Assembly (NCBI RefSeq): GCF_017308075.1
Contig: NZ_JAFKFX010000040.1
Location: 62,001-126,000 of the forward strand
Source: Allobosea sp.
Lineage (GTDB): Bacteria > Pseudomonadota > Alphaproteobacteria > Rhizobiales > Beijerinckiaceae
Direction of reading: 5' to 3'
Length of the DNA stretch: 64,000 nucleotides
Under the pieces are notes generated by a model that saw only the letters and a program-made list of their open reading frames with translations, searched no databases and was not told the origin of the DNA. The translations under genes and the position numbers were made by a program. Of the stretch, positions 7,485 through 63,467 are shown in pieces (within the stretch, counting starts at the first letter, position 1; the number at the start of each line of letters is the position of its first letter).

Positions 7485-7694
7485 CCTTCTCCCCTTGCCG
7501 GAGAAGGTGGCCCGAAGGGCCGGATGAGGGGTCGCGCAGGCCTCCCCGTCATGCTCGCCCTTGTGGCGAGCATCCAGGTCTTGGGCAGCACACGCGACCA
7601 GCGAAGACGTGGATGGTCGGGATAAGCCCGACCATGACGATGAAGCGTCGCGCGACCCCTCACCCTACCCCTCTCCCGCAAGGGGAGAGGGGGC
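7485..7694. repeat. Composite repeat: family B element nested in a family A pair
   Basis: Left A arm at about 7485-7535 and inverted right A arm at about 7646-7694 flank a complete B element at 7548-7638. The 249 bases between urtE and the Lrp gene hold nothing else visible, so the two convergent genes are separated entirely by this structure. Confidence 0.85.
7548..7638. repeat. Family B repeat (GTCAT...ATGAC), copy 1
   Basis: 91 bases from GTCATGCTCGCCCTTGTGGC to CCCGACCATGAC. The outer ends are inverted repeats; each half holds a small hairpin (GCTCGCC/GGCGAGC and GGTCGGG/CCCGACC) followed or preceded by ATCCA or CGTGGAT. Confidence 0.85.
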
Positions 7695-9750: not shown

Positions 9751-9841
9751 GTCATGATCGGGCTTGTCCCGACCATCCACGTCTGCCTTTGCGAGGCACG
9801 GTGTTCGAGACGTGGATGCTCGCCACAAGGGCGAGCATGAC
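9751..9841. repeat. Family B repeat, copy 2
   Basis: GTCATGATCGGGCTTGTCCC ... GAGCATGAC, 91 bases between two convergent genes. Inner hairpins GATCGGG/CCCGACC and GCTCGCC/GGCGAGC flank an ATCCACG/CGTGGAT inner stem. Confidence 0.85.
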
Positions 9842-40103: not shown

Positions 40104-40649
40104 ATGTTCGACATCGCCTGGAGCGAATTATTGCTGGTCGGGGGCGTCGCGCTCATCGTGATCGGCCCCAAGGAATTGCCGGGCGCGCTGCGCACTGCCG
40201 GACAGATGGTCGGCAAGGTCAGGCGCATGGCCGCGGAATTCCAGGGGCAGTTCAACGATGCGATGCGCGAGGCGGAGCTTCACGACCTGAAGAAGCAGGT
40301 CGAGGACATCGGCACCTCGGTGCAGGCCTCGACCAATTTCGACCCGATCGAGCCGATGAAGGATTTCGGCACGCCGGCCGCGCCGAAGCCCGACGAGGCG
40401 GCGGTCAAGGAGGCGGAAGCCAAGCTCGCGGCGATTCCCGGGCCGGAGCCCTTGCCCGAAATCGTGATCGATCCGGCACCGGTTGCGGCCGCCCAGGAGC
40501 CGGCCAAGCCGAAGCGCCGGCGCAAGACGGTCGCCACCGAGGAGCCCGTGATCCCGGAGGCTGAAGCCGCGTCGCCGGAGCCGGTCGCCAAGCCCGCCCG
40601 CAAGCGCAAGCCCAAGGCCGCCCAGAATGAAGACGGGAGCCCGGCATGA
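40104..40649 (+). CDS. tatB: Sec-independent translocase TatB
   Basis: 181 aa. N-terminal membrane segment with the conserved glutamate ([21 protein letters not shown]-type, residues 2-22), hinge GPKELP and amphipathic helix [20 protein letters not shown]. The long charged tail is rich in Pro, Ala, Glu and Lys. It forms the signal-recognising complex with TatC. Its TGA overlaps the tatC ATG by four bases. Confidence 0.95.
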
Positions 40650-41485
40650 GCCTCGCCGAGGTGAAGACGCCTTCGGATCGCGAGGGCGAAGATGACATCG
40701 AGGCTTCGCGCGCTCCGCTGATCGACCATCTGATCGAGCTGCGCTCGCGGCTTATCAAGTCGCTGGTCGCCTTCCTGATCATGTTCTTCGTCTGCTTCGC
40801 CTTCGCGACGCAGATCTACAATCTCCTGGTCCAGCCCTATGTCTGGGCGGCGGGGCCGGGCGCCAATGTCCAGCTGATCTACACGGCGCCGCTGGAATAT
40901 CTCTTCACGCAGATCAAGATCGCGGCGTTCGGCGCGGGCTTCTTCGCCTTCCCGGTGATCGCGACGCAGATCTACAAATTCGTCGCGCCGGGGCTCTACA
41001 AGAACGAGCGCCAGGCCTTCGCGCCCTATCTCGCGGCGACGCCGATCTTCTTCGTGCTCGGCGCGGCCATGGTCTATTTCTTCGCCATGCCGGTGCTGAT
41101 GAAGTTCTCGATCGGCATGCAGCAGGCGGCGACCGAGGGACAGGCCGGCATCCAGCTCCTGCCCAAGGTCAGCGAATATCTCTCGCTGATCATGACGCTG
41201 ATCTTCGCCTTCGGCGTCTCTTTCCAGCTGCCGGTGATCCTGACCCTGCTCGGTCAGGCCGGGATCGTCTCCTCGCAGTTCCTGAAGGAGAAGCGCCGCT
41301 ACGCCATCGTCTTCGTCTTCGTGGTCGCAGCCGTGCTGACGCCGCCGGACGTGATCTCGCAGCTGATGCTCGCCGTGCCGATGCTGTTGCTCTACGAGCT
41401 CTCGGTGTTCGCGGTGCGCCATGTCGAGAAGAAGCGCGACGAGAAGAAGGCGGCGGAAGAGGCGGCAGAGAAGGCCGGCGAGTAG
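40646..41485 (+). CDS. tatC: Sec-independent translocase TatC
   Basis: 279 aa, six membrane segments. The first loop carries the conserved [17 protein letters not shown], followed by [23 protein letters not shown] and the periplasmic [21 protein letters not shown], with the C-terminal [21 protein letters not shown]. Core receptor for twin-arginine signals. Start ATG at 40646 overlapping tatB. Confidence 0.96.
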
Positions 41486-41511: not shown

Positions 41512-41610
41512 GTCATTCCGGCCGGAAAGCGGCGCAGATCCAGAATCCATCCTAGAGCGATGTGCACTACGATGGGTTCCGGTGCTTCGCTTCGCTGCGA
41601 CCGGAATGAC
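41512..41610. repeat. Family C repeat, copy 3 (left flank of GIY-YIG gene)
   Basis: 99 bases with perfect 10-base ends GTCATTCCGG/CCGGAATGAC. Starts 26 bases after the tatC stop and ends 7 bases before the GIY-YIG start codon; its right end supplies part of that gene's ribosome-binding region. Confidence 0.85.
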
Positions 41611-41617
41611 GGAGGTG

Positions 41618-41905
41618 ATGGTGTGGGTCTACATCATGGCCAGCGGCTGGAACGGGACGCTCTATGTCGGCGTTACCAACAGCCTGAGCCGGCGCATGGC
41701 CGAGCACCGAGAGGGCAGGGGCTCTGAGTTCGCCCGGAAATATGGGGTCGTCCATCTCGTCTATGCCGAGCGTTTCGCGCGCGCCGCCGAAGCCATCGCG
41801 CAAGAGAAGTTGATGAAGCGCTGGCGGCGCGAGCGGAAGGTCGCGCTGATCAATGCCAGCAACCCAACTTGGCGGGACCTCTACGACACCATCCATTTGG
41901 ATTGA
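41618..41905 (+). CDS. GIY-YIG domain nuclease, small single-domain type (copy 1)
   Basis: 95 aa, a stand-alone GIY-YIG domain of the URI/UPF0213 type. Motifs: WVYIMASGWNGTLYVGVTN (both tyrosines of the GIY and YIG elements), catalytic arginine in LSRRMAEHREG, and catalytic glutamate in AIAQEKLMKRWRRERK, all intact, so single-strand or structure-specific DNA cleavage is plausible. GGAGGTG lies just upstream; ATG 41618 or GTG 41621 is the start. The gene is bracketed by two family C palindromes (7 and 18 bases away) and the whole cassette lies between tatC and serS. Confidence 0.88.
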   Translation: MVWVYIMASGWNGTLYVGVTNSLSRRMAEHREGRGSEFARKYGVVHLVYAERFARAAEAIAQEKLMKRWRRERKVALINASNPTWRDLYDTIHLD

Positions 41906-41923
41906 TCGGGGTGCTCCCTTTCC

Positions 41924-42029
41924 GTCATCCTGGGCTTCGCGCAGCGAAGTCCCGGGATCCATCGTAGAACTCCGGAGTTCCGTGATGGATCCCGGAGCTG
42001 CGCCGCTGGCGCGGCTTGTCCAGGATGAC
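41924..42029. repeat. Family C repeat, copy 4 (right flank of GIY-YIG gene)
   Basis: 106 bases with perfect 10-base ends GTCATCCTGG/CCAGGATGAC and an inner GGGATCCATC/GATGGATCCC stem. Begins 18 bases after the GIY-YIG stop. Confidence 0.85.
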
Positions 42030-42129: not shown

Positions 42130-43431
42130 ATGTACGACATCAAATGGATTCGCGAGAATGCGGAAGCGTTCGACCGGGGGCTGAAGCGGCGCGGGCTGGA
42201 GCCCCTGTCCTCCTCGCTGCTCGCGCTCGACGACACCCGCCGTGCGGCCATCGCCAAGGCGCAAGCCGCGCAGGAGCGCCGCAACGCCCTCTCCAAGGAG
42301 ATCGGCAAGGCGATGGGGGCGAAGGACCTCGCCCTCGCCGAGAAGCTCAAGGCCGAGGTCGCGGCACTGAAGGATGCCGGTCCTGCGCTCGAGGCGGAGG
42401 AGCGGGCCGCGGTCGAGGCGCTCAGCGAGCAGCTCGCGGCGATCCCGAACCAGCCGCATGAGGATGTGCCGGAAGGCGCCGATGAGCACGGCAATGTCGA
42501 GCACAGCCGCCATGGCGAGAAGCCGGAGCAGGGCGGCAAGCGCCTGATCGGTGTCAACCAGCCGAAGGAGCATTACGAGCTCGGCGAGGCGCTCGGCCAG
42601 ATGGATTTCGAGAAGGCGGCCAAGCTCTCGGGCTCGCGTTTCGTCGTGCTCGACCGGCAGATCGCCAGGCTGAACCGCGCCATCGGCCAGTTCATGCTCG
42701 ACACCCATGTCGAGGAGCACGGCTACACCGAGGTCAATCCGCCGCTGATGGTGCGGGACGACGCGATGTTCGGCACGGCGCAGTTGCCGAAGTTCCGCGA
42801 CGACCAGTTTCGCGCCGGCGAGGATCATTGGCTCATCCCCACCGCCGAGGTGCCGCTGACCAATCTGGTGCGCGAATCGATTCTCTCCGAGGAGGAGCTG
42901 CCGCGCCGCTTCACCGCGCTGACGCCGTGCTTCCGGGCCGAGGCCGGCTCGGCCGGCCGCGACACCCGCGGCATGCTGCGCCAGCACCAGTTCGAGAAGG
43001 TCGAGCTGGTCTCGATCACCGCGCCGGAAAAGTCGCGCGAGGAGCATGAGCGCATGCTCGCCTGCGCCGAGGCCGTGCTGAAGAAGCTCGACCTGCATTA
43101 TCGCGTGATGACTTTGTGCACCGGCGACATGGGTTTTGCCTCGCAGAAGACCTACGACATCGAGGTCTGGCTGCCGGGCCAGAAGACCTATCGCGAGATC
43201 TCGTCCTGCTCGGTCTGCGGCGATTTCCAGGCGCGGCGGATGAACGCCCGCTACAAGACCAAGGACGGCAAGGGCCCGTTCTTCGTCCACACCCTCAACG
43301 GCTCGGGCACGGCGGTCGGCCGCGCGCTGATCGCCGTGATGGAGAACTACCAGAACGCCGACGGCTCGATCACCGTGCCGGAGGCGCTGGTTCCCTATAT
43401 GCGCGGGGTGACCCGCATCGAGAAGGCGTGA
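42130..43431 (+). CDS. serS: Seryl-tRNA synthetase
   Basis: 433 aa class II aminoacyl-tRNA synthetase. N-terminal antiparallel coiled coil (about residues 30-100, [20 protein letters not shown]), then the catalytic core with motif 2 [31 protein letters not shown] and motif 3 [20 protein letters not shown]. It charges tRNA-Ser and tRNA-Sec. Start ATG at 42130 ([14 protein letters not shown]). Confidence 0.97.
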
Positions 43432-62834: not shown

Positions 62835-62963
62835 GTCATGGTCGCCCTTGTGGCGACCATCCACGTCTTCGCGCCGGAACGACTGCGCGAGCGGCGTTTC
62901 GCAGGCTGGCGGCTGCCATTTGCGTCGCAAGGCGTGGATGGTCGGGACAAGCCCGACCATGAC
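62835..62963. repeat. Family B repeat, copy 5 (left flank of second GIY-YIG gene)
   Basis: 129 bases, GTCATGGTCGCCCTTGTGGC ... CCCGACCATGAC, longer than copies 1-4 because of an extended centre (GCGCCGGAACGAC ... TTGCGTCGCAAGG). Confidence 0.88.
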
Positions 62964-63008
62964 GATGGAGCCCTTGTCGATACCATGGCGTCACCGCATC
63001 CTGACGCC

Positions 63009-63302
63009 ATGAAGCAGGAGGGCGGCTGGGTCTACATCATGACGAACCGGCCGAACGGCACGCTCTACATTGGCGTGACGAGCGACCTTGGTCGGCGCGT
63101 TCACGAGCATCGCGAGGGCCTGATTGCCGGCTTCACGAAGCAGTACGGGCTGAAACGTCTCGTCTGGTACGAATGGCACGACGAGATCGAAGCCGCGATC
63201 CAGCGCGAGACGTCCATGAAGCGCTGGTATCGCGCCTACAAGACCCGCACGATCATGGCCCGCAATCCCGACTGGACCGATCTTTACGACGAGCTGGCCT
63301 GA
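63009..63302 (+). CDS. GIY-YIG domain nuclease, small single-domain type (copy 2)
   Basis: 97 aa. WVYIMTNRPNGTLYIGVTS holds both tyrosine motifs, LGRRVHEHREG the catalytic arginine and AAIQRETSMKRWYRAYKTR the catalytic glutamate. About half identical to copy 1 by eye, including the C-terminal WxDLYD. ATG at 63009 follows TGACGCC; the frame extends far upstream through the repeats without conservation. Bracketed by two family B palindromes (45 bases before, 37 after), the same architecture as copy 1 but with a different repeat subfamily. Confidence 0.9.
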   Translation: MKQEGGWVYIMTNRPNGTLYIGVTSDLGRRVHEHREGLIAGFTKQYGLKRLVWYEWHDEIEAAIQRETSMKRWYRAYKTRTIMARNPDWTDLYDELA

Positions 63303-63339
63303 CCGGGCGGGCGGCTCCCGGTCCCGTAACCGCTCCACC

Positions 63340-63467
63340 GTCATGGTCGCCCTTGTGGCGACCATCCACGTCTTCGCGCCGGAACGACTGGGCGAGCAGC
63401 GTTTGCAGGCGGGCGCCTGCCATTGGCGTCGCAAGGCGTGGATGCTCGGGACAAGCCCGAGCATGAC
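63340..63467. repeat. Family B repeat, copy 6 (right flank of second GIY-YIG gene)
   Basis: 128 bases, GTCATGGTCGCCCTTGTGGC ... AGCCCGAGCATGAC. Nearly identical to copies 5 and 7, with the right inner hairpin changed in a paired way (GCTCGGG/CCCGAGC for GGTCGGG/CCCGACC). Confidence 0.88.

Follow-up and report, generated by a model that had tools for sequence, protein, structure and literature searches.

The Locus Between tatC and serS

The window considered here is a stretch of 64,000 nucleotides from Allobosea sp. (contig NZ_JAFKFX010000040.1, positions 62,001 to 126,000), contained in a 5.55-Mb host genome that is referred to as G000. Between tatC and serS, it carries a small gene for a GIY-YIG nuclease that is closely bracketed by two palindromes. 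Both palindromes are dimers of repetitive extragenic palindromes (REPs) of the CGTC-tagged class, and the subject of this paper is the relationship between such genes and such repeats. The locus is composed as follows (T1 is one of four palindrome types described below):

40646-41485, forward strand: tatC, left neighbour (gene name after the first-pass annotation of this DNA)
41512-41610 (99 bp), no strand: palindrome 1, T1-type CGTC REP dimer, GTCATTCCGG...CCGGAATGAC, fold z -4.4
41618-41905 (ATG start, stop included), forward strand: gene for a 95-aa single-domain GIY-YIG nuclease (PF01541)
41924-42029 (106 bp), no strand: palindrome 2, T1-type CGTC REP dimer, GTCATCCTGG...CCAGGATGAC, fold z -9.3
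42130-43431, forward strand: serS, right neighbour (gene name likewise after the first-pass annotation)

The gene is separated from palindrome 1 by 7 bp and from palindrome 2 by 18 bp. Both elements have perfect 10-base inverted ends, GTCATTCCGG in the first and GTCATCCTGG in the second, and the heads of the REP dimers point outwards. When each element was folded as a single DNA strand, 0 of 200 shuffles were equally stable. The first-pass annotation is exact to the base in the coordinates and lengths of the elements and the gene, the spacers, and the 10-base inverted GTCAT ends; the gap between tatC and serS measures 644 bp (tatC ends at 41485, serS starts at 42130) and not the 645 bp given there.

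The encoded protein matches the Pfam GIY-YIG domain with an E-value of 5.6e-14 (52.6 bits against a cut-off of 22.6). In an alignment of 25 diverse homologues, the others being 41-80% identical to the window protein, residues Y16, G18, R26, H30, E63, and N82 are invariant and Y5 is nearly so. Catalytic roles are known for two tyrosines, an arginine, a glutamate, and an asparagine of GIY-YIG enzymes; all five are kept here and the domain scores over its curated cut-off, which places the protein in the GIY-YIG superfamily. The ratio of non-synonymous to synonymous substitution rates is about 0.09-0.12 in five clades, where the synonymous rate is near saturation. As judged from the alignments, the catalytic residues are under purifying selection. 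The best solved relatives of the profile are two UPF0213 proteins (PDB 1zg2 and 1ywl, E-values 1e-10 and 6e-7), and among named relatives it is Bosea that has the closest homologues. An anti-phage defence function was also considered, and was set aside since none of the 25 members matched a PADLOC defence family.

At 41606-41620 of the window, as in some homologues, the foot of the upstream palindrome continues into a GGAGG that stands just ahead of the start codon. In these genes, the end of the palindrome may supply a ribosome-binding site together with a hairpin that controls translation. An Rfam scan for conserved RNA gave one match, to a small nucleolar RNA, at 23 bits and thus below the gathering score of 50; the reading of the elements as a conserved RNA was therefore set aside.

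Association of Small GIY-YIG Genes with Inverted Palindromes

Inverted arms around a gene were scored as the best local match between the 250 bp upstream and the reverse complement of the 250 bp downstream, and a score of at least 34 was taken as positive. Homologues of the nuclease were found in 46 of 61 genomes of relatives that were searched; 100 stretches were taken, of which 99 contain 102 homologues, weak ones and a broken copy in G000 included. Arms are present at 71 of the 102 homologues; among the 1032 other genes of these stretches, used as controls, they are present at 13, and among the 133 of those shorter than 150 aa at two. These control genes were predicted by a home-made codon-usage caller (77% of bases coding) and not by an annotation pipeline. 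Loci that belong to one clade and occupy one site do not count as independent; for 46 of the 102 loci, no other locus is syntenic on both sides.

The nature of the arms was examined by two further measures. GTCAT-ended hairpins lie within 100 bp on both sides of 17/102 homologues and 9/1032 controls, and GTCAT-ended hairpins as such are far commoner than by chance, with 59 in the first 50 of the 100 stretches against three, two, and one in three Markov simulations of these 50. The bare 5-mer GTCAT/ATGAC has little meaning alone, being found on both sides of 245/1032 controls as well. A strict rule for CGTC REPs (GTC head, AT stem, CC tail) finds a REP on both flanks of 21/102 homologues and 6/1032 controls (Fisher p ~3e-18), with 0/133 among the controls shorter than 150 aa. 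By the same rule, REPs occupy both flanks of the window gene and of a second GIY-YIG gene in the window (63009-63302), which is described below.

A wider sample consisted of 299 Pseudomonadota genomes, 174 of which have a match at an E-value of 0.001, weak relatives included. The strong tier examined comprises 30 loci and 60 further stretches, a part of those listed, and the weaker tier 16 stretches; the window's own genome is omitted from these counts, while one gene (L192, from genome G059) is also in the relatives set. Arms are present at 59 of the 91 strong-tier genes, in 20 of 23 families, compared with 2/299 control genes from 60 of these stretches. Outside the family to which the window belongs, the count is 57/87, and an alternative count that adds the window's own gene and eight named records at a slightly higher hidden Markov model (HMM) limit gives 62/97. 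Strict CGTC REPs on both flanks are found at 22 of the 91 genes. Thus, the expectations of the first-pass annotation, that homologues would have flanking palindromes and that these would not be as frequent beside any gene, hold in both samples. On the sequence evidence, the association of gene and palindrome is far beyond chance in many lineages.

The weaker tier (HMM score below 75 bits) had been tried as a negative control. It was rejected as such, since 4/17 of its genes have arms; these are of other repeat types by eye, and a strict-rule CGTC REP on either side was found at 0/17. Four of the weaker-tier loci (L262, L264, L271, and L272; HMM about 57-64 bits) have other flanking repeats by eye, CATCCTGAGG... 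with CCTTCGAGACGC- or CCTTCGACAAGC-like arms.

Named records extend the picture beyond the relatives. Thirteen of 33 plasmid records with a homologue were taken. Of eight further loci, L348-L350 were taken for scoring; L345-L347 are genomes already counted, and L351 and L352 were left unscored. Five of the first eight named records reach the score of 34: Rhizobium CIAT894 (127), Neisseria gonorrhoeae 2022NG-0032 (105), Azospirillum lipoferum 4B, with the gene placed between sufB and sufC (84), Novosphingobium pNL2 (58), and, just at the threshold, Spirosoma oryzicola (34). Planktothrix (33), Aeromonas (20), and Photobacterium (16) are below it. In a second set of eight named records, six reach it, namely Rhizobiales AFS094729 (106), Shinella (95), Neorhizobium (63), Sphingobium (55), S. 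meliloti (36), and Bosea CS1GBMeth4 (35), and two do not, a Bacteroidia metagenome-assembled genome (27) and Rhizobium K1/93 (15). By eye, the arms of S. meliloti, Sphingobium, and Novosphingobium are without GTCAT ends. The flanks of the Neisseria locus read GTCATTCCCGC...GCGGGAATCC, which we take, from its consensus, to be the repeat dRS3.

Two side observations concern these records. In Planktothrix agardhii plasmid p1 (L275), the homologue has an MmeI-type restriction gene on one side and drmA of the DISARM system on the other. In addition, NZ_CP119142.1 (Neisseria gonorrhoeae) and NZ_AP026896.1 (Aeromonas caviae) are megabase "plasmid" records whose size makes them look like mislabelled chromosomes.

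Cognate Palindromes and Repeat Number

The genome of the window contains five intact homologues and one broken copy, the latter seen as two matches. All five intact genes are bracketed by GTCAT-ended palindromes when their flanks are read, and these are of four sequence types. The window gene has T1 (TTCCGG...GGAATCCATC) and gene L002 has T2 (TTGCGAG...AGCAATCCAG). Gene L003 has T3 and lies inside the loop of one split palindrome with the inner arm CCGGAACCCACGA. T4 (GGTCG...CCATCCACG) belongs to both L004 and L005. No matching arms flank the broken copy (score 20). L004 is the second GIY-YIG gene of the window, and its unit, at 62835-63467, is missing from the first-pass annotation. The T4 features of the window are:

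7548-7638, no strand: bare T4-type palindrome
9751-9841, no strand: bare T4-type palindrome
62835-62963, no strand: T4-type palindrome, upstream of the second GIY-YIG gene
63009-63302, forward strand: second GIY-YIG gene (L004, paralogue q4), 50% identical over residues 3-92
63340-63467, no strand: T4-type palindrome, downstream of the second GIY-YIG gene

Sheer abundance of palindromes would let the upstream flank of a gene match the downstream flank of a paralogue as well as its own. This was examined in the 30 genomes with at least two homologues, which together have 86 genes. A score of at least 34 is reached by 59/86 own flank pairs and by 16/200 paralogue pairs. Among the downstream flanks, the gene's own one matches the upstream flank best in 66 of 86 cases, where 30 are expected, and in 56/59 where arms are present. 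The summed own-pair score is 4884, against 2888 (standard deviation 214, maximum 3768) in 5000 permutations among paralogues of the same genome. The two T4 genes of G000 match each other as well as themselves. By these comparisons of flanks, each gene clade has its own palindrome type.

A general hot spot for intergenic palindromes, or plain chance, might be invoked, since these genomes are rich in palindromes (the strict rule counts 208 REPs in 1.54 Mb). After the control counts of 13/1032 and 2/299 and the permutation among paralogues, this explanation is scarcely credible; it is refuted unless the controls share an unseen bias.

Repeat numbers were counted in the 61 genomes with four exact patterns, by which diverged copies are missed; control patterns, read backwards, occur 0 or 1 times per genome and strand. 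The comparison was made in 37 congeners with the gene's own flanks removed, and the phylogenetic regression used 33 of them as tips, placed on a species tree from three proteins for which no support values are shown. For gene clade q1a, the median number of T1 repeats is 77.5 with the gene and seven without it (regression p 0.027). For q2 and T2, it is 135 and 20 (p 0.0006), and for q3 and T3, 12 and six (p 0.002). As far as such counts can tell, for three of the four types the number of repeats goes with the cognate gene.

Sites, Movement, and Alleles Without the Gene

Most of the clades stay at one site across the genus. All ten q1a genes lie behind tatC. Clades q1b and q3 also have one site each, q1b beside what is presumably a UPF0173-like gene and q3 between genes that we take, on both sides, to be glycolate-oxidase-like. 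Two q1-like genes outside clades q1a and q1b (L052 and L063) lie elsewhere. Movement of the gene must therefore be rare, and the tatC-serS site is old. The first-pass annotation had seen there a candidate repeat/nuclease cassette; with all ten genes of the clade behind tatC, the unit at this site is not freshly mobile.

Clade q2 differs in this respect. Its ten genes form one clade (support 100/98), are found at seven unrelated sites, with two copies in genome G019, and all have arms, with scores of 59-135. At the first of these sites, the succession palindrome-gene-palindrome is found in G019 (with an internal stop in the gene), a lone T2 palindrome in G032, G001, and G008, and no palindrome in G024 and G011. 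The second site has the complete unit in G036, one palindrome in G013, and none in G006. A GIY-YIG gene outside this clade, L095 (G042), shares its upstream flank with the q2 genes L038 and L087.

G014 and G010 lack the entire q3 unit (about 410 bp) and retain no palindrome at its site. The unit ends in the 6-bp repeat GCSTGA, but three of these bases form the stop that terminates the upstream gene, and the repeat is therefore no proof of target duplication. A sister clade of q3, 62-65% identical, occupies the same site in L072, L081, and L097 (arm scores 102, 17, and 83). In L072 and L097, the inner arm is GGAACCCAGAACCGA instead of the GGAACCCACGA of q3; gene and palindrome type change together at one site.

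Thirty-two loci were read for the tatC-serS site: the gene is present in eight, tatC is not next to serS in seven, and 17 lack the gene. As judged by eye, the gene-less gaps hold a single T1 palindrome in four cases (one of them partial), T2 in one, T4 in 10, and an unclear element in one, while G021 has a short gap only. The type in the gap differs between congeners (L140-L166). A GIY-YIG gene from another clade is found at L098 (G051, from a different family within the order); its flanking regions on either side correspond to those of the tatC-serS loci, and it has no matching arms (score 21). This suggests a second arrival at one intergenic spot. The polymorphism that the first-pass annotation had asked for between close strains is seen in this form: the unit is present or absent among congeneric species, and alleles without the gene exist at four sites, the level of comparison being that of species.

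These alleles bear on two other accounts of the association. GIY-YIG is a classic homing fold, and a free-standing homing-type nuclease could cut gene-less palindromes and be copied into them by repair, the palindromes spreading otherwise and serving as a mere target. The position of the q3 gene in the loop of one palindrome and the single palindrome in relatives at the two q2 sites described above fit homing; two phage homing endonuclease families are weakly matched, by two and by one of the 25 aligned members, and the correlation of numbers can be read backwards, with more targets leading to more genes. However, a homing gene sits poorly with clades that mostly keep one site for a whole genus, and with a q3 unit that is wholly absent without leaving a palindrome. 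Homing would also leave the spread of the palindromes unexplained in the many congeneric genomes where the Y1 transposase is missing (see below). It is an unlikely explanation, albeit one of real weight.

The unit might also be a transposon with terminal inverted repeats, with the GIY-YIG protein as its transposase and the bare palindromes as internally deleted miniature inverted-repeat transposable elements. The q3 unit looks the part, since it is one open reading frame in a single split palindrome, is cleanly absent in two genomes, and has the GCSTGA repeat at its ends, while bare palindromes with the same arm exist. Half of that repeat is, however, the upstream stop codon, bare palindromes have no consistent duplication, and q1a, q2, and q4 are flanked on either side by a full palindrome and not by split arms, which makes this account very improbable.

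A host nuclease for hairpin processing or repair, kept because palindromes stall replication and collected with them in the same intergenic sites, is a third account. Slx1-type relatives cut branched DNA, and for the COG2827 genes of Caulobacter, of which there are three and of which one has an SOS box, a repair role has been proposed as a guess (PMC1839093, in the part consulted). The occupation of the tatC-serS gap by different palindrome types in different congeners would fit as well. Such a nuclease does not predict an arm sequence of its own for each paralogue, nor a q2 gene that occurs at seven sites and always with arms. Arms are also rare at ordinary genes of the same stretches (13/1032), and presence is patchy, with a homologue in 46/61 relatives. 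We regard it as improbable.

Other Nucleases and Other Palindromes

Of 41 congeneric genomes, 35, G000 among them, have no Y1 transposase (PF01797, the domain of REP-associated tyrosine transposases, RAYTs). The possibility that a RAYT acts in trans on these palindromes was set aside on this ground; the flanks of four RAYT loci were viewed by eye, without a count.

DUF559 (PF04480), another small nuclease of the same genomes, was chosen as a negative control, with 25 testable loci out of 30. It could not serve as a control of absence, being positive with another palindrome: 15 of the 25 genes have matching arms, and in 14 of these 15 CTCTCC/GGAGAG is on both sides, GTCAT/ATGAC being so in one. 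Among the 71 GIY-YIG genes with arms, the corresponding counts are three and 60 (Fisher p ~1e-11), and a strict-rule CGTC REP on either side was found at 0/25 DUF559 genes. DUF559 thus tests specificity rather than absence, and the type of palindrome goes with the nuclease family. Inverted copies of CCTCTCC...GGAGAGG bracket DUF559 loci among L353-L382, for example L357, L358, L369, and L374. It is possible that DUF559 and its palindrome form a third partnership of nuclease and palindrome.

Comparison with Known Systems

A close parallel is found in the REP/BIME systems of RAYT/TnpA_REP genes, with their REPtrons and REPINs, where a small nuclease gene is likewise bracketed by inverted palindromes that are scattered over the genome. 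The GIY-YIG genes share with RAYTs this bracketing by inverted REPs of their own type. RAYTs also stay for long periods at one site, and the number of their repeats goes with the gene. The differences lie in the enzyme, since a RAYT is a Y1 HUH transposase (PF01797) and the window gene encodes a GIY-YIG protein (PF01541), and in the repeats, which are GTAG-tagged for RAYTs and CGTC-tagged, with (C)GTC-AT ends, for the GIY-YIG genes.

CGTC REPs were described as having a CGTC head, a stem that opens with AT, and a CCA tail, and as occurring in dimers, predominantly head-to-head ones, and mostly in Alphaproteobacteria, where all surveyed orders have them (Di Nocera et al. 2013, PMC3733652, here and below in the part consulted). 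The window palindromes share with them the head, the AT stem, and the CC(A) tail. The class includes dRS3 of Neisseria (CGTC-1) and RPE-4 and RPE-6 of Rickettsia, and the conclusion in 2013 was that it apparently lacks a dedicated transposase. The term GIY-YIG has 0 occurrences in that paper, and likewise in the 2025 RepRanger paper (PMC12306157).

Free-standing GIY-YIG homing endonucleases, such as the Seg proteins of T4-like phages, are also small, intergenic, and mobile, but they differ from the genes described here, which have cognate repeats on both sides and, in most clades, a long vertical residence. The small UPF0213/COG2827 proteins of the Slx1 cluster have the same domain (PMC1564403); in that article, 'palindrom' is absent from the main text and section 11 makes no link to palindromes. 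Among the matches listed for searches of the open-licence PMC literature, which takes in no preprints, no paper links small GIY-YIG genes with REPs; this does not prove absence from print.

A Candidate Partner for CGTC REPs

We put at roughly 60% the probability that the window gene is a dedicated partner of CGTC-tagged REPs, similar to a RAYT and with a GIY-YIG enzyme in place of a Y1 (HUH) one. More generally, the data suggest that in small GIY-YIG enzymes we have the partners, long missing, by which such repeats are spread or processed. The first-pass annotation had given the enzyme the role of a RAYT. The association, the cognate matching, the correlation of repeat number, and the rarity of RAYT-type genes support that view; its enzymatic part, the nicking or resolving of palindromes, is a prediction. 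We infer from the sequences that the nuclease acts on the palindromes; that it goes beyond homing into them and multiplies them is less certain.

In such a partnership, the enzyme would recognise the hairpin or cruciform of its own palindrome, most likely when this is single-stranded on the lagging-strand template, and would nick near the GTC-AT foot. Host replication or repair would then insert the released or copied palindrome anew; this would happen in trans for bare copies and, on rare occasions, in cis for the unit that bears the gene. The gene could thus stay for long at one harmless intergenic site, from which it would sustain a population of bare palindromes.

Several findings weigh against this interpretation. 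Firstly, no arms are detected by our measure at 31/102 homologues of the relatives and 32/91 of the phylum sample, and the 12 loci of the q1b site, including the broken copy of G000, have no matching arms (scores 17-24), with a palindrome seen by eye on the upstream side only. Secondly, the numbers are not uniformly cognate. T4 repeats do not correlate with q4 (median 49 with the gene and 43.5 without, p 0.65, 33 tips), and q1a correlates with T2 (p 0.011) beside T1 (p 0.021) when phylogeny is included, as q2 does with T4 (p 0.028). Without phylogeny, one-sided off-pair effects are seen for q1a-T2 (0.002), q2-T4 (0.037), q3-T4 (0.009), and q1b-T3 (0.011). In addition, four congeners without a q2 gene (G004, G013, G024, and G026) hold 100-116 T2 repeats. 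Thirdly, most clades stay at one fixed site. Internal stops interrupt two of the ten q2 genes, including the copy that G019 has at the first site. G014 falls among carriers in the species tree, so that its q3 unit was probably lost. Alleles with a single palindrome could stem from gene loss by recombination between two palindromes. Finally, there is no consistent target duplication at the bare palindromes (22 of 29 cases viewed), and a simple target-site duplication was set aside for this reason.

Palindrome-specific nucleases may have arisen more than once. Y1/HUH enzymes with GTAG REPs are the known partnership; GIY-YIG enzymes with CGTC REPs, including the very abundant dRS3 of Neisseria, and DUF559 with CTCTCC/GGAGAG would be others, unrelated to it. 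The idea that a hairpin-specific nuclease multiplying non-coding palindromes was invented at least three times on different folds has, in our estimation, slightly less than an even chance of being right.

The agent that spreads CGTC REPs was left open in 2013 (PMC3733652, in the part consulted), and the GIY-YIG gene is now a named candidate for it. Cognate pairs of gene clade and palindrome type are defined, as are congeners that naturally have or lack the gene. If the partnership is real, the way of life known from REPs and RAYTs would not be tied to one nuclease fold, and a function would be at hand for a large group of small GIY-YIG genes that are named only by their domain in the records examined.
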